DNA from: Gemmatimonadota bacterium
GTDB taxonomy: Bacteria > JAAXHH01
Length of the DNA stretch: 52,757 bases
Assembly: GCA_009835325.1 (NCBI GenBank)
Contig: VXWP01000086.1
Coordinates: forward strand, 1-52,757
Direction of reading: 5' to 3'
Position 1 is the first letter of the stretch, and every line of letters starts with the position of its first letter. Position numbers and translations under genes: made by a program. The notes beneath the pieces were generated by a model that did no database searches, was not told the DNA's origin, and worked only from the letters and a program-made list of their open reading frames with translations. This document shows, in pieces, positions 4,881 through 22,586 of the stretch.

Positions 4881-5693
4881 ATGACCATGGTCATGGAACA
4901 AACCGTGCTGAGCGACGAGCAGATCGCGTTCTACCAGGAAAACGGGTTTCTCCACATCCCGGAGGTATTTACGCTGGAAGAGACTGCCGAATTGTCGGAT
5001 CAAATGGACCGGCTCGTCGAGGACTGGGCGTTCACGAGCCCGGGATGGAACGGTCCATGGCGCCTGGCCTACATGGATCCGGAGACGGAGGCCAAATCCA
5101 AACTGACGGCCATGCACGATCTCCATTTCTATTCCCAGGCCTGGTCGCGCGCCGTCGCCAACCCACGGCTGGTGGAGGCCCTGTCGCAGCTGCTGGGGCC
5201 AAACGTGGAGCTGCACCACACCACGCTGCACATCAAGCCGCCCCAGACCGGGCATCCCTTTCCCCTGCACCAGGACAACCCTTTCTACGGCCATCACGAC
5301 GGCCGGTACATCGACGTACTCGTCCACCTGGACGACACCTGCCACGAGAACGGTGAGATCCGCTTCCTGGCGGGCTCCCACAAATCCGGTCATCTGCAGC
5401 ATATCACCGAATCAGAAGAAGGTCCCTGCGCGCCTCATCTGCCGACCGACGAGTACAAGCTGGAAGACACGGTGGCCGTACCGGCCCGGGCCGGCGACGT
5501 GGTCATCTTCTGCATCGACACCGTGCACGGTTCCTACATCAACCAGACAAAAGAGCCCCGCAGGCTCGTGCGCATGGGCTACCGGAACCCGGACAACCGG
5601 CAGGAGTACGGCCAGAGCTTCGGACGGCCGGGTCTTATGGTCTGCGGATACCGCAAACGGCGAGAAGGCGACGAACTGCTCCCGGGTAACTGA
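4881..5693 (+). CDS. Phytanoyl-CoA dioxygenase (PhyH) family protein
   Basis: A 270-residue non-haem iron, 2-oxoglutarate-type dioxygenase. The iron-binding triad is readable: His130 and Asp132 in LHQDNPFYG, and His216 in DTVHGSY. Arg231, in RRLVRMGYR, could hold 2-oxoglutarate. The N-terminal region has the family pattern ENGFLHIPEVF. AAGGAG a few bases upstream supports ATG 4881. The stop codon TGA (5691-5693) overlaps the ATG of the next gene by one base (TGATG), so the two are probably translationally coupled. PhyH relatives in environmental bacteria hydroxylate diverse small molecules, so phytanoyl-CoA itself is unlikely to be the substrate. The dimethylformamidase-like partner hints at a nitrogenous or amide compound, which is inference. 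Confidence 0.88.
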   Translation: MTMVMEQTVLSDEQIAFYQENGFLHIPEVFTLEETAELSDQMDRLVEDWAFTSPGWNGPWRLAYMDPETEAKSKLTAMHDLHFYSQAWSRAVANPRLVEALSQLLGPNVELHHTTLHIKPPQTGHPFPLHQDNPFYGHHDGRYIDVLVHLDDTCHENGEIRFLAGSHKSGHLQHITESEEGPCAPHLPTDEYKLEDTVAVPARAGDVVIFCIDTVHGSYINQTKEPRRLVRMGYRNPDNRQEYGQSFGRPGLMVCGYRKRREGDELLPGN

Positions 5694-8911: not shown

Positions 8912-10360
8912 ATGATGCCGAAGAACATCGTCGTACTCATTACGGATACCTTCCGCCACGACAACCTGGGAAACCGCGCGGAGCGGTCCGTGCGAACGCC
9001 CGAGCTGGACCGTTTCGCCGCGGAAAGGGCGACGGAGATCACAAAGGCCCACATGGGCAGTTTCCCCACGATCCCCCATCGCACCGATTTCGCGACGGGC
9101 GTCACCGGTTGGCCCCATTACGGCTGGCAGCCCATCGATCTGAGCGGGCCCAACCATGCGGGCAGGATGCTCGGTGAACAGGGTTACGCCACGCAACTGA
9201 TCTGCGACTGTCCCCACCTGTTCAAGGCCCGTTTCACCGATGGCTTCGACGCGGCGTACCAGAACCGGGGCCAGGAGGGCGACAAGCCGCTGCTCCACCT
9301 CAACGACCCCGTAGAACGCGTCGTCCAGGACGACAAGACCCGCGTGCACCCGCGCTACCGGGGCCATACGCTCGTCAACCAGCATCGCTGGATCAACCAC
9401 TACTACCGGTACGAATCCGACGTCTTCTCCGCGCAGACCGCGCAGACCGCCGTTCGCTGGCTCGAGGAAAACGCGGAATCCGGCCCGTTCTTCCTGTGGG
9501 TGGACTTCTTTGATCCCCACGAACCCTGGGATCCGCCGGAATACATGGTGCGGCGTTACGACCCCGATTACACGGGACCCCCCATGCTGCATCCGAACTA
9601 CGGACCGTCATCGGCCTACACGCCGGAGGAACTGCATAACCTGTGGGCCCACTACGCCGCGGAGACGGAACTGGTGGACCGCCATATCGGCCGGGTCCTG
9701 CAGAAGATCGACGACCTGGGTCTTTGGGACGATACTATCGTGACCGTCATGTCGGACCATGGCATGTCCATCGGCGAACACGATCGGACCGGCAAGTCCA
9801 ATATCATGGACACCGACGAGAGGTTCTGGCCCATCTACCCGGAGATCGGTCACGTCATGCTGATGCTGGCAGGCGGCGGCGTGCCTCGCGGGGCGCAACT
9901 TCCCCTGATTACGCAGACGATCGACCTGTTCCCGAGTCTCTGCGACCTGGCGGGCGTCACTGTGGACCCGCCGAAATCTTTCGATGGTGTATCCTTTGCC
10001 GGGGCCGTGCTGGAAGGCCGGACCAGCCACCGCGAGTACGCGGTAAGCGGCTGCCACCTGGCGGACCCGTCAGAAGGCCTGGCGAGGCGCGCCACGACGC
10101 CCTTCCTCGTTACGGACCGTTGGGGCTACGCACCCGTTGGAGCGGACGGACGGCCCGAGCTCTACGACCTGCAGAAGGACCGTCTGGCCCAACAGAACAT
10201 CGCCGACGGCAACGACGCCACCATGGATGATCTGCATGCCCTTTTCCTGGCCCACCTGGCGGAAAACCACGCTCCGGAAAACGTGACCGCCGTCTGGAGC
10301 CAGTCGGGTGGCAGCGGAAACCTCGAGGGTAAGTGGGCTATAGACTACCCCGGGGAATAG
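8912..10360 (+). CDS. Sulfatase-fold (alkaline phosphatase superfamily) hydrolase with Thr at nucleophile position
   Basis: A 482-residue protein with the sulfatase fold: a metal-binding start (LITDTFRHDNLG; Asp12, Asp17), TPELDRFA, and DFFDPHEPWDPP in the middle. MSDHGMSIGEHD, which supplies the second metal ligands, lies near residue 280. The C-terminal half includes TQTIDLFPSLCDLAGV. The signature C/S-x-P-x-R, whose Cys or Ser becomes formylglycine, reads T53-I-P-H-R57 here, followed by the usual F-A-T-G. Thr cannot be made into formylglycine but serves as nucleophile in phosphotransfer members of the superfamily such as NPP phosphodiesterases and LtaS. A phospho- or phosphonate-ester hydrolase is therefore as likely as a sulfatase. 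There is no signal peptide. AAGGA upstream supports ATG 8912. Confidence 0.85.
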   Translation: MMPKNIVVLITDTFRHDNLGNRAERSVRTPELDRFAAERATEITKAHMGSFPTIPHRTDFATGVTGWPHYGWQPIDLSGPNHAGRMLGEQGYATQLICDCPHLFKARFTDGFDAAYQNRGQEGDKPLLHLNDPVERVVQDDKTRVHPRYRGHTLVNQHRWINHYYRYESDVFSAQTAQTAVRWLEENAESGPFFLWVDFFDPHEPWDPPEYMVRRYDPDYTGPPMLHPNYGPSSAYTPEELHNLWAHYAAETELVDRHIGRVLQKIDDLGLWDDTIVTVMSDHGMSIGEHDRTGKSNIMDTDERFWPIYPEIGHVMLMLAGGGVPRGAQLPLITQTIDLFPSLCDLAGVTVDPPKSFDGVSFAGAVLEGRTSHREYAVSGCHLADPSEGLARRATTPFLVTDRWGYAPVGADGRPELYDLQKDRLAQQNIADGNDATMDDLHALFLAHLAENHAPENVTAVWSQSGGSGNLEGKWAIDYPGE

Positions 10361-10369
10361 GGAACGCCC

Positions 10370-11317
10370 ATGGAAGCGGTCGACGATTATACCCGATTTG
10401 AAAAGCTCGTCCATCGATTCGATCCGCACGCCAGGCTGAAGCACCATCACAGCCTGCCCGGCGGCTACTCGGCCGATGTGACCGTCCTGGAAATCGAAGC
10501 CGGAGACGGTACGTCGAGAAAGCTCATTCACCGGTTGCACGGCGAGGTGGACCTCCAGCAGAACCCGAACGTGGCCGCGGACGAGTTCCGCGTGCTGCAA
10601 CTGACCCACGCCGCGGGGCTGGCCACGCCCGCCCCGGTCTACCTCGACACGACGGATCCCCTTTTTCCCACGCCCTCCCTGGTGCTGGAATATGCCGAGG
10701 GGGTTACCGATCTGAAGCCCGGCGATCCGGCGGAGTACGTGATGCAGATGGCCTGGGAACTGGCCAGGATACACCGGATGGACACGGCCGGCCGGGATAT
10801 TTCCTTTCTTCTGCGGTTGGAGGATGAATGCGCTTCGGCGGTCGGGAGGCCGCCGGATGCTCCCGGCGTTACCGCGGGCGAACGCGAACTGATCGAAATG
10901 CTCGCGCCGTGCTGGCCACTTCCCCGCAGCAATACGCCGGTTGTCCTGCACGGCGACTACTGGCCGGGGAATACCCTCTGGCAGGATGGACATCTCACGG
11001 CGGTCATCGACTGGGAGGACACCCGGCGGGGGGACCCGCTCTTCGACGTTTCGAACGCCCGGTTCGAGATCCTGATGCTCTTCGGCGCGGAAATCATGGA
11101 TACCTTCACCCGCCACTACGAATCCCTGAATCCTGTGGACTCCGGATGCCTTCCCTGGTGGGATGTCTATACGGCGTTTCGCATGGTAAATAAACTCGAC
11201 TTTCTCGCCACGGAAGAACGGGACGAATCCCTGATTCGCGCCGATCATCACTGGTTCGTCGAGCAGGCCCGCGACCGCATGGGATCGTGCCGAACCATGC
11301 GTCAACCGCCAAAATAA
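10370..11317 (+). CDS. Aminoglycoside phosphotransferase (APH)-family kinase
   Basis: A 315-residue small-molecule kinase of the APH/choline-kinase fold. The catalytic loop is HGDYWPGN (His194, Asp196, Asn201) and the metal-binding Asp214 lies in AVIDWED. The N-terminal lobe shows LPGGYSADV as the nucleotide-binding loop and KLIHRLHG where the ATP-binding Lys/Arg lies. LVLEYAEG is the hinge. In environmental genomes this family phosphorylates sugars, amino alcohols or antibiotics; nothing here points to resistance. It starts nine bases after the sulfatase-fold gene and is probably the last gene of that operon, with the tRNA promoter immediately after it. Confidence 0.82.
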   Translation: MEAVDDYTRFEKLVHRFDPHARLKHHHSLPGGYSADVTVLEIEAGDGTSRKLIHRLHGEVDLQQNPNVAADEFRVLQLTHAAGLATPAPVYLDTTDPLFPTPSLVLEYAEGVTDLKPGDPAEYVMQMAWELARIHRMDTAGRDISFLLRLEDECASAVGRPPDAPGVTAGERELIEMLAPCWPLPRSNTPVVLHGDYWPGNTLWQDGHLTAVIDWEDTRRGDPLFDVSNARFEILMLFGAEIMDTFTRHYESLNPVDSGCLPWWDVYTAFRMVNKLDFLATEERDESLIRADHHWFVEQARDRMGSCRTMRQPPK

Positions 11318-11320
11318 CAC

Positions 11321-11349
11321 TTGCCCGAAGCCCCTCCTCCGCGTACATT
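11321..11349 (+). promoter_or_regulatory. Sigma-70-like promoter of the tRNA-Pro genes
   Basis: TTGCCC (11321-11326), 17-base spacer, TACATT (11344-11349). This places the start of transcription about eight bases before the first tRNA. It matches the promoter before the PhyH gene almost exactly. Confidence 0.5.
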
Positions 11350-11364
11350 ATACGCCGAAGTTTT

Positions 11365-11438
11365 CGGGGCGTAGCGCAGTCAGGTAGCGCACCAGCATGG
11401 GGGGCTGGTGGTCGCTGGTTCAAATCCAGTCGCCCCGA
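11365..11438 (+). tRNA. tRNA-Pro (anticodon GGG)
   Basis: A complete cloverleaf. The acceptor stem is CGGGGCG (11365-11371) with CGCCCCG (11431-11437), then discriminator A. The D stem is GCGC/GCGC. The anticodon stem CCAGC/GCTGG holds loop ATGGGGG, giving anticodon GGG at 11399-11401 after T33. The T stem is GCTGG/CCAGT with loop TTCAAAT. CCA is not encoded. It reads CCC (and CCU) proline codons, which are common in this genome. Confidence 0.95.
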
Positions 11439-11487
11439 TTCCGGCAAGGCAGCCCACCGAGCCCTTGCCCCTTGATCGGTCATATAT

Positions 11488-11562
11488 CGGGGCGTAGCGC
11501 AGCCCGGTCAGCGCGCCTGCTTCGGGAGCAGGAGGTCGGGAGTTCAAATCTCCCCGCCCCGA
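11488..11562 (+). tRNA. tRNA-Pro (anticodon CGG)
   Basis: A complete cloverleaf. The acceptor stem CGGGGCG (11488-11494) pairs with CGCCCCG (11555-11561), with discriminator A. The anticodon stem is CCTGC/GCAGG with loop TTCGGGA, giving anticodon CGG at 11523-11525. CCA is not encoded. It shares the acceptor and most of the D arm with the GGG tRNA 49 bases upstream, so the pair probably arose by duplication and is probably co-transcribed. Confidence 0.95.
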
Positions 11563-15284: not shown

Positions 15285-15555
15285 ATGTGCACCGGGCAGC
15301 ACCCTCAACATGGCGGTCACGCCGTTCGTGAAGTTGCGGCTATGCGGCTCCTGCCACAAAGGGCTTTACATCAAAAATGCGTGACACTACATTGGGCAGA
15401 TATTTGCGAAACTTTTCAATATCAGATCGCCTGTTTTGTATACAGGGAATACGGGCTTGAATCCTTACCCCGGTCCGTGACATCTCTGTGTCTAAACGGT
15501 TTTGTGCATGCGATTCGCAGTACCATTCAACCTGCATCATGGGAGGCAGCGTGTG

Positions 15556-17562
15556 ATGAGTAGATTTTCCCCCTTGTTTCGATGGACGCCGCCGGTGATC
15601 GCGCTGGCCATGGCGATCACGGTATTCGCATCCTGCGAACCCGCGGCACAAAGGGCGCCGGGCAAGATCATCCCGGTGGAGCAGCCTGATAGCGAATGGC
15701 GCATGCTGGGCCGCGACCTGGCCTACACGCGCTATTCCCCGCTGGACCAGATCAACGCGGACAATGTGGGCCGCCTCGAGGTCGCCTGGCGATGGAAGCA
15801 GGACAATTTCGGTCCACGTCCCGAATACTATGCCCAACCGGTGCCCATCTACGTGGGGGGCATGCTTTATTCCACGGCAGGTACGCGGCGTAGCGCCATG
15901 GCCATCGAGCCTGAAACCGGCGAGACGATGTGGACTTACCGCCCGGTGGAGGACGAAGAACGCTGGGCTACGGCTCCTCGGCGAAATTCGGGGCGCGGCG
16001 TCTCGTTCTGGACCGACGGGCAGGGCGACAACCGGGTCATCCTGATCACCCGGGGGTTTTACCTGGTGGCTCTCGACGCCCAGACGGGCATCCCGGTGGC
16101 CGAATTCGGCAATAACGGCGTGGTCGACATGATGGCTGGCTGGCGCAATTCCGAGAACGTCACGCCCGTCGGCAACCTGGCCAACACGTCTCCCGCGACG
16201 GTCGTGGGGGACATCATCCTTGTTCCGCCGGCCCTCGCCGCGGGATTCCGGCCCCGATCGATGACCAACTCGCCGGGAGACGTCGTGGCCTACGACGCCC
16301 GCACCGGCGCGGTCCTCTGGAAGTTCAAGGTCATCCCAGACGATGGCGAGGACGGCTCCGAGACCTGGGAGCAGAATTCGAGGTCCTATACCGGGAATGC
16401 CGGCGTATGGACGTCCATCTCCGCCGACACCGAACTGGGCTATGCCTATCTGCCCATCGAGGCGCCGACGAACGACTATTACGGCGGGCATCGCCTGGGT
16501 GACAACCTGTACGCGAACAGCCTGGTGGCCGTGGATTATACGACGGGCGAGAAGATCTGGCATTTCCAGATCGTGCATCACGATATCTGGGACTATGACA
16601 ATCCCGCCGCGCCGATCCTTGCCGACGTGACCATCGACGGCGAGCCACGCAAGATCGTGATCCAGAACACCAAGCAGGGCTATTCCTACGTCTTCGACCG
16701 GGTCACCGGCGAACCCATCTGGGACATGCCCGAGACCGACGTACCCGCGACCGACGTACCGGGCGACCGGGCTTCACCTACGCAGCCGATTCCCGTGAAG
16801 CCTGCCCCCTGGGAACACCAGGGTATCAGCCAGGACGACCTGGTGGACTTCACCCCGGAGGTGCGCCAGGAGGCGATCAACCTGATGGCCAACCACCGGT
16901 ACGGACCGCTTTACCAGCCGCCTTCGCTCGCGGAAGCGCCGGACGGTACCATCGGCACGATCCAGATCCCGGGCGCGAACGGCGGGGTCAACTGGAACAT
17001 GACCTGCCTCGATCCGGTTTCCGGTGTGAATTTCATCCCCTCCAACACCAGCATTTCAAAGCTGGCGCTGCGGGCGCCGGATCCCGAAGAGTCGGACATG
17101 GACTACTTCTCGGCCGGCCTGAGAGCGCCGCGGGTCTTCGGCGAGATCCCGCTGGTCAGGCCGCCCTGGGGACGGATCACCGCGGTCGACATGAATACGG
17201 GCGATCACGTGTGGATGGCGCCTAACGGCGATACGCCGCAAGCCATCAAGGACCTGCCGCAGCTCGCGGGCGTCGATCTGCCCCGGACCGGCAAGGCCAC
17301 CCGGATCGGTTCCCTGGTGACGAGCACGCTGCTCTTCGCCGGCGAGGGCTTCGGAGGAGATCCCTATCTGCACGCCTACGACAAGGCGACGGGTGAAGTC
17401 GTCGCGTCGATCGAACTGCCGGCGGCCCAGAGCGGTATGCCCATGACCTACATGCACAATGACGTGCAATACCTGATCATGACCGTCGGCGCCAGTGGCC
17501 ATGCCGCCGAGTTGGTGGCGTTAAAACTGGGCGAGGAACCCGCAGCCGAAGAAGGCGAATAG
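15556..17562 (+). CDS. PQQ-dependent dehydrogenase, lipoprotein (quinoprotein glucose/alcohol dehydrogenase-like)
   Basis: A 668-residue eight-bladed quinoprotein propeller. It has a lipoprotein signal (VFASC, Cys27), so it is anchored facing the periplasm. Repeated blade motifs are seen, for example LEVAWRW, GETMWTY, GAVLWKF, GEKIWHF, GEPIWDM and GDHVWMA. The active-site block HHDIWDYDNP (Asp346) and TKQGYSYVFDR (Lys373) have the spacing of Asp466 and Lys493 in E. coli membrane glucose dehydrogenase, so it is probably active. GGGAGG at 15541-15546 supports ATG 15556; the frame is open further upstream to 15502 without family sequence. It should oxidise a sugar or alcohol and pass electrons to quinone or cytochrome c. 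The DUF1080, TonB receptor and one-haem genes follow. Confidence 0.85.
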   Translation: MSRFSPLFRWTPPVIALAMAITVFASCEPAAQRAPGKIIPVEQPDSEWRMLGRDLAYTRYSPLDQINADNVGRLEVAWRWKQDNFGPRPEYYAQPVPIYVGGMLYSTAGTRRSAMAIEPETGETMWTYRPVEDEERWATAPRRNSGRGVSFWTDGQGDNRVILITRGFYLVALDAQTGIPVAEFGNNGVVDMMAGWRNSENVTPVGNLANTSPATVVGDIILVPPALAAGFRPRSMTNSPGDVVAYDARTGAVLWKFKVIPDDGEDGSETWEQNSRSYTGNAGVWTSISADTELGYAYLPIEAPTNDYYGGHRLGDNLYANSLVAVDYTTGEKIWHFQIVHHDIWDYDNPAAPILADVTIDGEPRKIVIQNTKQGYSYVFDRVTGEPIWDMPETDVPATDVPGDRASPTQPIPVKPAPWEHQGISQDDLVDFTPEVRQEAINLMANHRYGPLYQPPSLAEAPDGTIGTIQIPGANGGVNWNMTCLDPVSGVNFIPSNTSISKLALRAPDPEESDMDYFSAGLRAPRVFGEIPLVRPPWGRITAVDMNTGDHVWMAPNGDTPQAIKDLPQLAGVDLPRTGKATRIGSLVTSTLLFAGEGFGGDPYLHAYDKATGEVVASIELPAAQSGMPMTYMHNDVQYLIMTVGASGHAAELVALKLGEEPAAEEGE

Positions 17563-18308: not shown

Positions 18309-20522
18309 ATGAAAACGATTCTCCCAGCCTGCGGCGTCCTTTTACTGTATCTGCATCTGTTTCTGCATCCGCAACCCGCCCACGCCTGGCCGCAGTCGAC
18401 TCCGGACACCACCGAAGTTACCGTAGATCACGTTCTCCAACCCATTGAAGTCACCGCTACCCGATACATCCGGGAGATCCTCGACATCCCTTATGCCGTG
18501 GACCGGGTGGACCGGGACGAGATCCAGCGCGCCGAACCGGGGCTGTCCCTGGAGGAAAGCGTCCGCGGACTTCCGGGCATCATCGTAAACAACCGGAACA
18601 ACGTTTCCCAGGGCGACCGGATCAGCATCCGCGGCCTGGGCAGCCGGGCGTCCTTCGGCGTGCGCGGGGTGAAGCTGGTGCTGGACGGCATTCCGCTGAC
18701 CATGGCCGACGGCCAGTCCCAGCTCAACAACCTCGATCTCACCTCGACGGGGCAGATCGAAGTACTGCGCGGTCCCAGTTCCTCGCTTTACGGCAACGCG
18801 GCAGGCGGCGTCATCCAGATCCGCACGGAAGAGGCCCCGGACCGGCCACTCGAAGTCACGCCCCGTTTCATTACCGGCTCCCATGGCCTGCGGCGCATAC
18901 AGGGCAAGGCGGCCGGCACCGCGGGCGGCAGCCGTTTACTCGTCAATTTCAATACGCTCTGGTTCGACGGGTTCCGCGACCATGCCTTCGCACGGTCGAC
19001 CGGCATCAACTCAGTCGGCAAACGGAGGATCGATGATACCTGGACCGTCACAGCAGTAGCCAATTACTACAATGCCCCCTACCAGTACAACCCGAGCTCT
19101 CTCGACAAGGCCACCGCCGAATCGGACCCTGCCAGCGCGAGGGCCTTCGTCCAGCGGCAGGGCGCGTCCAAGGAGGTCAGACAGTTCCAGGGCGGCCTGT
19201 CCCTTCGTTACGAGGCGCCCGGGTCCGAGGGGGAGATCACGGTGTTCGGCATGGGACGCACGCTGTTCAACCCCATACCGGGCCGGATCATCGACCTGGA
19301 CCGCATGGCCGGTGGAATCCGGGGAGTGTACAGCCGCGAGGGCGGGATCGGAAACGGCGGTTACCGAATGACGGCCGGACTGGATCTGGAGATACAGCGC
19401 GACGATCGGCGTGAATACGGCAACGGCGGCATTCCGGGAGACCTCGTGGGCACGCTGGACGACGCCCGCGTCTTCGACGAAATCTCTCGCGGGGACAAAC
19501 GGCTGGACCAGGAGGAAGGCGTCGATGGCTTCGGCCCCTTCCTGGAACTTGAATGGTCACCCGTTCCCGATGTTTCCGTCACCGCCGGCGGGCGGTACGA
19601 CCGGTTCCGGTACGAGGCGACGGACCGGTTCCTGAGTGACCGGACCGACGATTCGGGTACGCGGAACATGGCACAGTTCAGTCCCCACCTGGGCGTGGCC
19701 TTCCGGCCTGCCCCGCTCACGGCGGTGTACGGAAATTTTTCCACTGCTTTTCAGACCCCGACCACCACGGAACTGAGCAACCAGCCCACCCAGGCCGGTG
19801 GTTTCAACCCCGATCTCGAGCCCGAACGAATCCGCGGCTTCGAGGCGGGCATTAAGGGATTCCTGCCCGATGCCGGGTTGGCCTATGACGCGGCCCTCTT
19901 CACCTTCGGTATACGCAATATGCTCCTGCCCTTCCAGATCGACCATCCGGAGACGGACGAGGTCTTTTTCCGCAACGCGGGCAAAACGCGGAACCGGGGC
20001 ATCGAACTGAAACTGACCTGGTCTCCCCTGCCCCCGGTCAACCTGGCGTTGGCCTACACGGGCATGCAATTCAGGTTCGACGACTTCGAGGTCGAGCGGG
20101 AGGTCGATGGAAGCGCCTCGCGCTTCCAGTTGTCGGACAACGAAGTGCCCGGCGTGCCGCCCCACCACCTGTTCGCCGGATTCACCTACACACATCCGGG
20201 GAACGGCGCGTTCGTGGAGTTGAATGCGCAATGGACGGCGGAGTACTACGCCAACGACTTCAACGGTCCCGCTCCGGGGAACGGAAAGCCCGTATCCGAC
20301 TTCGTCAACGATGGTTACGGCCTCGTTGATTTGCGCGCGGGAATCATGTACCATGGAAAGATGGTCGGCGGCGTCCTGTTCGCCGGAGTCAACAACCTGT
20401 TCGATACGCGTTACAATGGTTCCATCGTCCCCAACGCCTTCGGGGACCGTTTCTTCGAGCCGGCCGCGGGCCGGACGTGGTATGTGGGACTCGGCCTTCC
20501 CATCGGTGCGGGTTCGAGATGA
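18309..20522 (+). CDS. TonB-dependent outer-membrane receptor
   Basis: A 737-residue receptor with signal peptide (residues 1-26, ending PAHA), a TonB-box-like PIEVTATR near residue 45, and a plug domain of about residues 55-170. The plug contains ESVRGLPGIIVNN, ISIRGLGSRASFG, VKLVLDGIPLTMADG and IEVLRGPSSSLYGNAAGG. A beta-barrel follows, with LEPERIRGFEAGIKG, NAGKTRNRGIEL and LFDTRYNGS near the end. It should bind a scarce ligand outside and import it using TonB energy. The class carries siderophores, cobalamin or carbohydrates; there is no secretin-like extension or SusD partner. The Shine-Dalgarno is poor. Its neighbours (PQQ dehydrogenase, DUF1080) suggest a sugar-like ligand, while the BtuF-like gene lies far away. 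Confidence 0.9.
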   Translation: MKTILPACGVLLLYLHLFLHPQPAHAWPQSTPDTTEVTVDHVLQPIEVTATRYIREILDIPYAVDRVDRDEIQRAEPGLSLEESVRGLPGIIVNNRNNVSQGDRISIRGLGSRASFGVRGVKLVLDGIPLTMADGQSQLNNLDLTSTGQIEVLRGPSSSLYGNAAGGVIQIRTEEAPDRPLEVTPRFITGSHGLRRIQGKAAGTAGGSRLLVNFNTLWFDGFRDHAFARSTGINSVGKRRIDDTWTVTAVANYYNAPYQYNPSSLDKATAESDPASARAFVQRQGASKEVRQFQGGLSLRYEAPGSEGEITVFGMGRTLFNPIPGRIIDLDRMAGGIRGVYSREGGIGNGGYRMTAGLDLEIQRDDRREYGNGGIPGDLVGTLDDARVFDEISRGDKRLDQEEGVDGFGPFLELEWSPVPDVSVTAGGRYDRFRYEATDRFLSDRTDDSGTRNMAQFSPHLGVAFRPAPLTAVYGNFSTAFQTPTTTELSNQPTQAGGFNPDLEPERIRGFEAGIKGFLPDAGLAYDAALFTFGIRNMLLPFQIDHPETDEVFFRNAGKTRNRGIELKLTWSPLPPVNLALAYTGMQFRFDDFEVEREVDGSASRFQLSDNEVPGVPPHHLFAGFTYTHPGNGAFVELNAQWTAEYYANDFNGPAPGNGKPVSDFVNDGYGLVDLRAGIMYHGKMVGGVLFAGVNNLFDTRYNGSIVPNAFGDRFFEPAAGRTWYVGLGLPIGAGSR

Positions 20523-20573
20523 CATCCCGCCAGCCCGGATGAGCCGTTCCCAATGAAGACACAGGAGTCGCAC

Positions 20574-20966
20574 ATGAATAGGTTTATGCGCGTCCTTGGC
20601 CAGATCGCCTTCGTGATCGTCCTCGATGCCCTCGTGATCGGCGTGATCTACTACGAAGCGGAGCGATCGAAAGTCGCACTGGCCAATGCCAGGGCCGAGG
20701 CGGCCAAGCCCGTGGCGATGTTCGATCCCCGGACCGGACTGGAACTGAATCACCGGACCCGGCTGATCATGGGCGACGGCTACCCCGTCGTGGAAAGGGA
20801 ATGCGCGCAGTGCCATCCGACCCAGATCATCCGCTCGTACCGGGCGAACCGCGAGGAGTGGCTGGACGCTATCCGGTGGATGCAGGCGGAGAAGGGCCTG
20901 AAGACATTCGACAGCAAGACTGAAGACACCATCCTGACCTATCTCGAAAACTACTACGGCAGATAG
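20574..20966 (+). CDS. Membrane-anchored one-haem c-type cytochrome-like protein
   Basis: A 130-residue protein with one N-terminal transmembrane helix (about residues 7-27, IAFVIVLDALVIGVIYY) and a periplasmic domain with a single haem c motif C77-A-Q-C80-H81. After it come EEWLDAIRWMQAEKGL and ILTYLENYYG, the short helical pattern seen in small cytochrome c subunits; a Met near residue 100 (in RWMQ) could be the second iron ligand. AGGAG at 20563-20567, six bases before ATG 20574, favours this start over ATG 20553. A single haem next to a PQQ dehydrogenase suggests an electron acceptor role, which is inference. It ends eight bases before the next gene. Confidence 0.7.
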   Translation: MNRFMRVLGQIAFVIVLDALVIGVIYYEAERSKVALANARAEAAKPVAMFDPRTGLELNHRTRLIMGDGYPVVERECAQCHPTQIIRSYRANREEWLDAIRWMQAEKGLKTFDSKTEDTILTYLENYYGR

Positions 20967-20974
20967 CGGTTCCG

Positions 20975-21982
20975 ATGGCCCACCAGGTTGAATCAGAAAT
21001 CGATGCCATCGAGTACGCCCATGACCGGGGCTGGTCGGATGGTCTGCCCGTCGTGCCGCCCACCCGCGATCGCATCGACCGGATACTGACCGCGCACGGA
21101 CTCGAGCCCGGCCGGGAAATCGGGCGGGTGTCCGAACGAAAGCGAACCGTCACCGCGGAACTGGTCGCGGCCAACGCGGTGATGGCCGGTTGCACCGACG
21201 CGCTTTTCCCCGTGGTCCTGGCCGCGGTGGAAGCCGTCCTGGACCCGGCATACAACATTGTCGGCCCCTCGGCCAGTACGGGGGGCGCCGCACCGCTGGT
21301 CATCGTACACGGCCCTGTCGTGGCCGAACTGGGTTTCAATGCGGAAACTGCGGTACTCGGTGCGGGCAACCGGTCCAATCTGACGCTGGGCAGGGCTCTG
21401 AACCTGGTGATCCGGAACGGTATCGGCAGCGTGCCCGGGGACCTGGACCGGGCGACGGTAGCCCATGCCGGACGCATCGCGTACTGCCTGCCGGAAGCGC
21501 GTTGCGCCGGCTGGCCGACCCAGGGCGAAGAACGGGGTGTTCCCGCGGACCGCGGCGCCGTAACGGTATTTGCCGCCGAAGGCCCCCATTCCGTGGCCGA
21601 CCACGTAAACGACGTACCCGAAGGCCTGATCGACTCGTTCGCGCGCGTCGCCCGCACGACCAACTACGCCGGCGCCGCCATCGTTTTCGTCATCTGCCCG
21701 GAACACCGGTCGGTCTTCGGCGGGGCCGGGTGGACGCGCGATACGATCCGGGACGCGCTGTTCGAACGCACGGCGGCCGCAGGACGCGAGATCCACGCAA
21801 CGGGCCGGCACGACGACCTGGATCCCGACGAACGCATTACGCTGACGCCGGACCGGGAAGGCATCTGGATCGTCTTCGCAGGAGGTTCGGCGGGCGGACA
21901 CTCCGCCATCATCCCCTCCTGGCTGGGAGCAGGCAGGGGAGTCGGATCGCGGCCTGTGACGCGCCTGGTTTCCATATCGTAA
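20975..21982 (+). CDS. Conserved protein of unknown function, partner of the UGSC selenoprotein
   Basis: A 335-residue soluble protein without signal peptide or membrane span. Recognisable conserved blocks are GWSDGLPVVPPT near the start, ANAVMAGCTDALFPVVLAA near residue 65 (with Cys73), NIVGPSASTGGAAPLVIVHG, LGAGNRSNLTLGRALNLV, and a glycine-rich C-terminus (FAGGSAGGHSA). I have seen this pattern (MAGC..., NATIGRAL-like) in bacterial proteins of unknown role, often near UGSC-family genes; the family has no firm name that I can give. It follows the one-haem gene by eight bases and precedes the selenoprotein by 79. A shared substrate or a redox reaction with the selenoprotein is plausible but not shown. 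Confidence 0.65.
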   Translation: MAHQVESEIDAIEYAHDRGWSDGLPVVPPTRDRIDRILTAHGLEPGREIGRVSERKRTVTAELVAANAVMAGCTDALFPVVLAAVEAVLDPAYNIVGPSASTGGAAPLVIVHGPVVAELGFNAETAVLGAGNRSNLTLGRALNLVIRNGIGSVPGDLDRATVAHAGRIAYCLPEARCAGWPTQGEERGVPADRGAVTVFAAEGPHSVADHVNDVPEGLIDSFARVARTTNYAGAAIVFVICPEHRSVFGGAGWTRDTIRDALFERTAAAGREIHATGRHDDLDPDERITLTPDREGIWIVFAGGSAGGHSAIIPSWLGAGRGVGSRPVTRLVSIS

Positions 21983-22061: not shown

Positions 22062-22586
22062 ATGCCCATATCCCTCGTCGATCCCACGGCCTCCGCCGCC
22101 GAAGCGGTCCTTCGGCCGGCCCGTCGTCCGCTCGGTCCCGGGCACACCATAGCCGCACTGGTGGGTAATGGAAAGCCCAATTCCGATGTCATCCTGCACG
22201 GCGTCTTCGAGCAGTTGAGCAAACGCCTGTACCATCCCGTGGAAGCGCTCGAGTTCACCAAGGAAAGCGCCAGCCGGGTGCTGTCCGACGAGATGACCGG
22301 TCTCATCGCGAGGCGCTGCCATTTTGCCCTCGTGGGCGTCGGCGACTGAGGCTCCTGCAGCGCGTGCAGCATGCACGATGCCCTCATCCTGGAGAATCTC
22401 GAATTACCGTCCGTACTGCTGTGTACGACCAACTTCACGCACACCGCCCGCGTGCTGGCGGAGCAACTCGGACGCGGTGACTATCCGATCGTTGAAATCG
22501 ATCATCCCATTGGCCGGCTCGATGAAATCGGACTCGCCGACCGGGTCGGCCAGGCGGTGGACAAAGTCGTTGAACTGTTGAAGTAG
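22062..22586 (+). CDS. UGSC-family selenoprotein (in-frame TGA read as selenocysteine)
   Basis: One frame of 175 codons with an in-frame TGA at 22347-22349 (codon 96) and a TAG stop at 22584-22586. The protein reads FALVGVGD-U96-G-S-C99-S-A-C102-S-M-H-D, then ALILENLELPSVLL, TTNFTH, LAEQLGRGDYPIVEIDHPIG and a helical C-terminus. U-G-S-C is the signature of the UGSC selenoprotein family found in marine metagenomes; homologues with Cys in place of Sec (GVGDCGSC) exist. Both halves belong to one domain, so TGA is not a true end. GGAG at 22050-22053 supports ATG 22062. A hairpin follows the TGA. UxxC implies thiol redox chemistry; the reaction is unknown. SelA, SelB, SelD and tRNA-Sec must be encoded elsewhere. 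Confidence 0.88.
22357..22381 (+). promoter_or_regulatory. Candidate bacterial SECIS hairpin
   Basis: Apical stem CGTGC (22363-22367) with GCACG (22373-22377) closes loop AGCAT, which can tighten to a six-pair stem with loop GCA. An outer GCA/TGC pair (22357-22359 with 22379-22381) extends it past a small internal loop. The loop begins 18 bases after the TGA and has G in its first two positions, as described for bacterial SECIS elements. A competing CTGCA/TGCAG hairpin (22355-22369) is possible. Confidence 0.65.

Follow-up and report, generated by a model that had tools for sequence, protein, structure and literature searches.

The stretch of DNA analysed here (the window) is the complete 52,757-nucleotide contig VXWP01000086.1 of assembly GCA_009835325.1, and it carries on its forward strand a UGSC-family gene that lies directly behind a well-conserved gene of 335 codons, here called the partner (Table 1). 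When its in-frame TGA is read as selenocysteine (Sec, U), the UGSC gene (22062-22586) is translated as a single protein that runs from MPISLVDPT through GVGD-U-GSCSACSMHD to VVELLK and includes the [U/C]-G-S-C motif. Under the standard code the same DNA yields two ORFs, one of 95 aa (22062-22349) and one of 71 aa (22371-22586), just as a preliminary description of the locus had predicted for an ordinary gene caller; the frame that it had traced from ATG 22062 through TGA 22347 to TAG 22584 likewise agrees with our translation. The Pfam family PF24696 (UGSC) covers residues 5-173, before and after the TGA (134.6 bits against a cut-off of 25, E 5e-39), confirming the earlier assignment of the part beyond the TGA, with its C99 and C102, to the same domain. 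With Cys substituted for Sec, the NCBIfam equivalog NF041046 scores 116.5 bits, which is close to its 125-bit cut-off yet under it, so that the protein is more safely assigned to the broader Pfam family.

Table 1. Genes and sequence features around the UGSC locus, in window coordinates
Feature	Position	Strand	Remarks
PQQ-dependent alcohol/glucose-type dehydrogenase	15502..17562	+	syntenic in the genus
TonB-dependent receptor	18309..20522	+	first in the conserved run TonB receptor-cytochrome-partner-UGSC
Membrane-anchored c-type cytochrome-like protein	20553..20966	+	CAQCH; SorB-like (weak); 9 nt 5' of the partner gene
Obligate partner gene	20975..21982	+	335 aa; without a Pfam/NCBIfam family; DGLP and AVMAGC (Cys73) motifs conserved
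UGSC-family selenoprotein gene	22062..22586	+	174 aa; Sec96, Cys99, Cys102; stop TAG 22584-22586
In-frame TGA, Sec residue 96	22347..22349	+	translated with TGA=U; TGA kept in relatives
Putative bacterial SECIS hairpin	22360..22381	+	position and pairing conserved
Putative SECIS upper stem	22363-22368/22372-22377	+	6 bp, all paired in 7 distinct sequences
Putative SECIS triloop	22369-22371	+	GCA; loop starts 19 nt after the UGA

With respect to the selenocysteine itself, the genome of the window (3.68 Mb, 95% complete) is placed by its relatives in Ca. Latescibacterota, several of these relatives being labelled as Gemmatimonadetes MAGs. UGSC is present in 13 of the 16 genomes of this phylum that were examined, always as one copy with one in-frame TGA (13/13) and with conserved sequence on either side of it, and the same TGA recurs in additional MAGs (loci L028-L037); a sequencing error or a chance TGA can therefore be dismissed. 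The actinobacterial and haloarchaeal homologues have Cys at the Sec position. The search of the genome for selA, selB, selD and tRNA-Sec that had been proposed at the outset found all four: selA scores 456.8 bits, selB and selD are both there, and a tRNA-Sec with anticodon tca (70.6 bits) lies some 40 nt beyond the end of the selB frame. Neither homologues that end at the TGA, nor a genome devoid of Sec machinery, nor relatives whose TGC or TGT would betray a sequencing error were found. That the TGA is a true stop, followed by a separate gene or a decaying pseudogene of 71 aa, agrees with the two ORFs that gene callers report, but it has become a negligible prospect, considering that the family profile runs across the TGA, that the TGA, the frame and both halves are kept in 13 genomes, that the Sec machinery is complete and that there are homologues with Cys in its place. 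Together with the SECIS-like hairpin described below, the family match, the decoding machinery, the TGA in relatives and the Cys homologues bear out the UGSC-family selenoprotein of the preliminary description; this comparative evidence supports a genuine selenoprotein gene, which as such is an ordinary new member of an already known family.

The UGA at 22347 would be decoded as Sec via SelB and tRNA-Sec, aided by a hairpin located just 3' of it. In every Sec-containing UGSC gene examined there is a triloop that starts with G 19 nt past the UGA (GCA, GTA or GTG), and the upper six pairs form in all seven distinct sequences, with one G-U. A G-led three-base loop agrees with what has been published on bacterial SECIS elements, whose small apical loop contains a guanosine (PMC1088965). 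There is a single compensatory change, in which the Acidovorax and Paracoccus genes have G-C for C-G, and hence one covarying pair only; synonymous-site conservation in the hairpin codons is modestly above that in the rest of the gene (e.g. 6/10 vs 27/78). The stability of the hairpin showed no significant excess over that of shuffled sequences (z -0.65), and an Rfam scan of the UGSC gene matched no family, the general bacterial SECIS model included.

The ORF of the partner gene, just upstream, ends 79 nt before the start of UGSC, and no Pfam or NCBIfam model matches either it or 41 of its relatives. UGSC itself, in the form of two peptide patterns from close relatives, was the sole criterion by which 80 public loci were taken from the genome collection, and all 80 have a homologue of this partner next to UGSC in the same orientation. 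Given the origin of the patterns, these loci do not represent the UGSC family as a whole without bias. At two of them (L037 and L066) the partner is truncated by the end of the contig. In the Latescibacterota the partner is 5' of UGSC and in the actinobacteria it is 3'; two haloarchaeal loci (L108 and L110) have one UGSC gene flanked by two partner genes. The reverse search, from the partner in plasmids, returned 24 records, 19 of which cover 80% or more of a query made up of UGSC+partner. Moreover, fusions with UGSC ahead of the partner occur in Sporomusa, Vibrio, Variovorax boronicumulans and Neorhizobium (frameshifted) and on an Acidovorax IncP plasmid (with the TGA inside). The invariable adjacency and the natural fusions support the view that UGSC and the 335-aa protein form one enzyme, and the adjacency in all 80 loci bears out the earlier suggestion of a redox system shared with the neighbouring conserved protein.

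Among the conserved residues of the partner are DGLP (22-25), GxGxR.N (129-135), R140, E174 and W180, and the Cys73 of its AGC motif, present in 52 of 53 true members, is its sole nearly invariant cysteine. No evidence of cleavage was found at Cys73, and no pyruvoyl or other carbonyl site was identified in the partner. The structure model is confident (pLDDT 87.5, pTM 0.89), and a Foldseek comparison of it with solved folds gave no good match, the best being class I fumarases (E 2e-4, TM ~0.3). Homology to these fumarases was rejected for want of profile similarity (P 0.28), as was homology to GrdE/PrdA, the partner subunits of the glycine and proline reductases (hhalign P 0.49). An apparent similarity between the partner and UGSC was an artefact of a fusion sequence (L160) in the partner alignment and was discarded.

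In the window the genes for the TonB receptor, the small cytochrome c, the partner and UGSC make up a compact run in one direction, and in eight relatives there is synteny of the PQQ dehydrogenase, the TonB receptor, the cytochrome, the partner, UGSC and two amidohydrolases. The order TonB-cytochrome-partner-UGSC is also found in a MAG labelled as gammaproteobacterial (L036), with identities of 57% for the cytochrome, 65% for the partner and, over a short match only, 71% for the TonB receptor. It is a speculative thought that, in the genome of the window, the proteins of this run handle a compound imported by the upstream receptor. Elsewhere the neighbours are alcohol and aldehyde dehydrogenases, SDRs, CoA transferases, CoA ligases, amidohydrolases, luciferase-like monooxygenases and organic-acid transporters; these point to peripheral catabolism and to no single substrate. 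The actinobacterial part of this tally was made with a rough home-made gene caller, and there the broad classes of neighbours alone are trustworthy. Genes for thioredoxin and its reductase recur as well: trxB and trxA are immediately 5' of the pair in Arthrobacter, trxB is 3' of it in Roseovarius and 5' of it in Variovorax, and in V. boronicumulans and Haloterrigena the pair has flavoproteins of thioredoxin-reductase type on its flanks. Among the 80 genome loci trxB is near UGSC in just three, and the window has none. One Arthrobacter UGSC (L109:8001-8813) has a C-terminal NifU-like domain (E 4e-6).

Several copies reside on plasmids and have fared poorly in annotation. The Acidovorax sp. T1 plasmid p2-T1 (L111:7908-9443, NZ_CP021650.1), a conjugative IncP plasmid, has UGSC, with its TGA, and the partner in a single frame near IS1071, a fusion that is annotated merely as a hypothetical protein of 97 aa. 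Plasmid pFER4 of Paracoccus ferrooxidans (L163:5001-6658 and 9973-11529, CP038202.1) carries a Sec-UGSC and its partner, with a plasmid-borne selB about 3.3 kb away and TusA, DsrE and cysteine desulfurase nearby; this pair is mis-annotated as three hypothetical proteins. The same pair as that of pFER4 occurs at locus L158, with its TGA at 5645.

AlphaFold2 models UGSC as an alpha/beta domain of five strands (pLDDT 91.3), with Sec96 between the strand 88-94 and the helix 97-112. Flavodoxins and lumazine synthases are among its top matches in the PDB, all of them weak with a TM of at most 0.5; there is no thioredoxin-type fold among the 50 best. The predicted fold is thus flavodoxin-like, not thioredoxin-like, and this model speaks against the thioredoxin-like fold proposed in 2008.

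GrdB, the selenoprotein B of glycine/sarcosine/betaine reductase, and PrdB, the Sec subunit of D-proline reductase, have the motifs UGTCTRC and UGTCHR at a strand/helix junction of the UGSC kind. With reference genes from clostridial and enterococcal plasmids, an hhalign comparison of UGSC with GrdB+PrdB placed Sec on Sec over 89 columns (score 52.8, prob 93.5, P 2.4e-7), whereas the maximum in 200 column shuffles was 26.4. Enlarging the UGSC alignment from 43 to 48 and then to 57 sequences raised the hhalign prob from 49 to 76 to 93.5 and the score from 31.5 to 40.4 to 52.8. When the seven motif columns were masked (48-sequence alignment) the score was still 31.9 vs a shuffle maximum of 19.4, and the segments E..GIP and PxG also align between UGSC and GrdB/PrdB. 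PF07355 (GRDB) has no match in the genome of the window, nor at E<=1 in 43 UGSC members, and since the Pfam GRDB model does not match UGSC, the case for kinship is a profile-profile one throughout. A sequence search of the solved structures with the UGSC, partner, GrdB and GrdE/PrdA profiles found no relative. On these alignments, UGSC is likely to be a remote homologue of the GrdB/PrdB active-site domain. In another Latescibacterota genome (G015) there is a PrdB-like protein of the GRDB family with an in-frame TGA (UPLC; L117:1267-1974, minus strand), which gives the phylum a second protein of the Sec reductase type.

In the reading that we favour, and that we consider reasonably probable, UGSC and the partner make up a two-subunit, thioredoxin-fed reductase in which the partner holds a substrate for attack by Sec/Cys96. 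Sec96 would be the active nucleophile of a U-G-S-C-x-x-C motif, situated where a strand ends and a helix starts in the flavodoxin-like domain, with Cys99 (here also Cys102) as resolving thiols. The partner would hold or polarise the substrate, the selenol would attack its electrophilic centre and Cys99 would resolve the adduct or the oxidised selenium; the resulting selenenyl-sulfide would then be reduced via the neighbouring Cys by thioredoxin/thioredoxin reductase, a reductant suggested by the motif and by the trxB/trxA neighbours in relatives. By analogy, the 335-aa protein probably binds or activates the substrate in the place of GrdE/PrdA. The role of such an enzyme would be a reductive step in the breakdown of small organic compounds in aerobes.

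There are two other ways to account for the pair. The partner alone might be the catalyst, for example of a lyase or hydratase type, while UGSC regulates or protects it and the Sec/Cys pair serves for redox protection or as a ligand of a metal or cluster. The weak Foldseek matches of the partner to class I fumarase hint at this, as do the Vibrio and Sporomusa fusions, which are without the motif cysteines (GDMGTS), keep the partner domain with its Cys73 and stand beside aconitase X. Nevertheless, we think this unlikely: C/U96 and C99 are retained in 55 of 57 UGSC sequences, the two exceptions being these same fusions, and the partner lacks any profile similarity to the fumarases. Furthermore, with its one nearly invariant cysteine, which is too few, the partner is unlikely to hold such a cluster on its own. 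The Vibrio and Sporomusa fusions probably do other chemistry; the GDMGTS proteins at L115:6359-8041 and L116:7317-9038, next to genes for aconitase X and DUF126, are perhaps a non-redox derivative. The second alternative is that UGSC, with a thioredoxin-like fold, acts generally as an oxidoreductase of thiols or as a peroxidase, with the partner as a mere specific client or chaperone. The UxxC motif, the thioredoxin and thioredoxin reductase genes among the neighbours and the fold guessed in print (PMC2398784) would all suit such a protein; yet the model predicts a flavodoxin-like alpha/beta sandwich of five strands, the profile kinship is with GrdB/PrdB and the surroundings are catabolic rather than those of stress defence, and we regard this alternative as improbable.

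It is possible, though for us not quite an even bet, that UGSC and the partner represent a new class of two-subunit selenol/thiolate reductases. Such a branch of the GrdB/PrdB superfamily would work in haloarchaea and in bacteria that respire oxygen, attack organic substrates in catabolic operons, have been moved between phyla by plasmids and use Sec where it is available and Cys elsewhere. What is new here is the obligate 335-aa neighbour, the kinship with GrdB/PrdB, the flavodoxin-like predicted fold and the recurring neighbours of thioredoxin-reductase type and of aerobic catabolism. The obligate pair and an active site tied to GrdB/PrdB turn UGSC from an orphan into a concrete, testable hypothesis. 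If it is true, the glycine/proline reductase superfamily, familiar from the anaerobic fermentation of amino acids, extends to aerobic catabolism. In practice, UGSC genes are split or truncated by gene callers, as the Paracoccus and Acidovorax examples illustrate.

How does this pair compare with what has been described? The UGSC family, its Sec and its motif were published in 2008 (Zhang and Gladyshev, PMC2398784) and are represented in NCBIfam and Pfam. In that paper the family is presented without a function and with a suggested thioredoxin-like fold, counts among the more abundant selenoprotein families of the Global Ocean Sampling survey (255 sequences) and has a reported fusion to a conserved domain named Unknown_1, perhaps the same domain as our partner. 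The window protein shares with the published family (PF24696/NF041046) the UGSC motif and a Sec that has Cys homologues; it is the partner as an obligate neighbour and the kinship with GrdB/PrdB that the earlier account does not include.

The parallels with GrdB/PrdB are a motif of the U-G-[TS]-C-x-x-C type at the same strand/helix junction, a gene beside that of a larger, substrate-side subunit and the existence of natural two-subunit fusions, PrdA-PrdB (L132) in the one case and UGSC-partner in the other. The known GrdB/PrdB systems are fed by thioredoxin. In Peptoclostridium acidaminophilum (L132:151-2193), PrdA and PrdB share one continuous frame across the Sec TGA, in parallel with the UGSC-partner fusions. 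There are also differences: UGSC is without the rest of GRDB and does not match PF07355, its partner is dissimilar to GrdE/PrdA, and it occurs for the most part in aerobic, catabolic surroundings, with Cys often taking the place of Sec.

In GrdB the selenol attacks a carbon of the substrate and the CxxC residues protect the Sec; the pyruvoyl group is absent from certain partners of GrdE type, among them betaine GrdI and FarE (PMC10838667). The FarB/FarE system of monofluoroacetate-reducing Synergistota, in which a nucleophilic Sec is proposed to cleave a carbon-heteroatom bond with no pyruvoyl in the partner (PMC10838667), resembles UGSC and its partner in being a GrdB/GrdE-like pair. However, FarB and FarE are related by sequence to GrdB and GrdE, and FarB is without the CxxC residues, which UGSC partly keeps.
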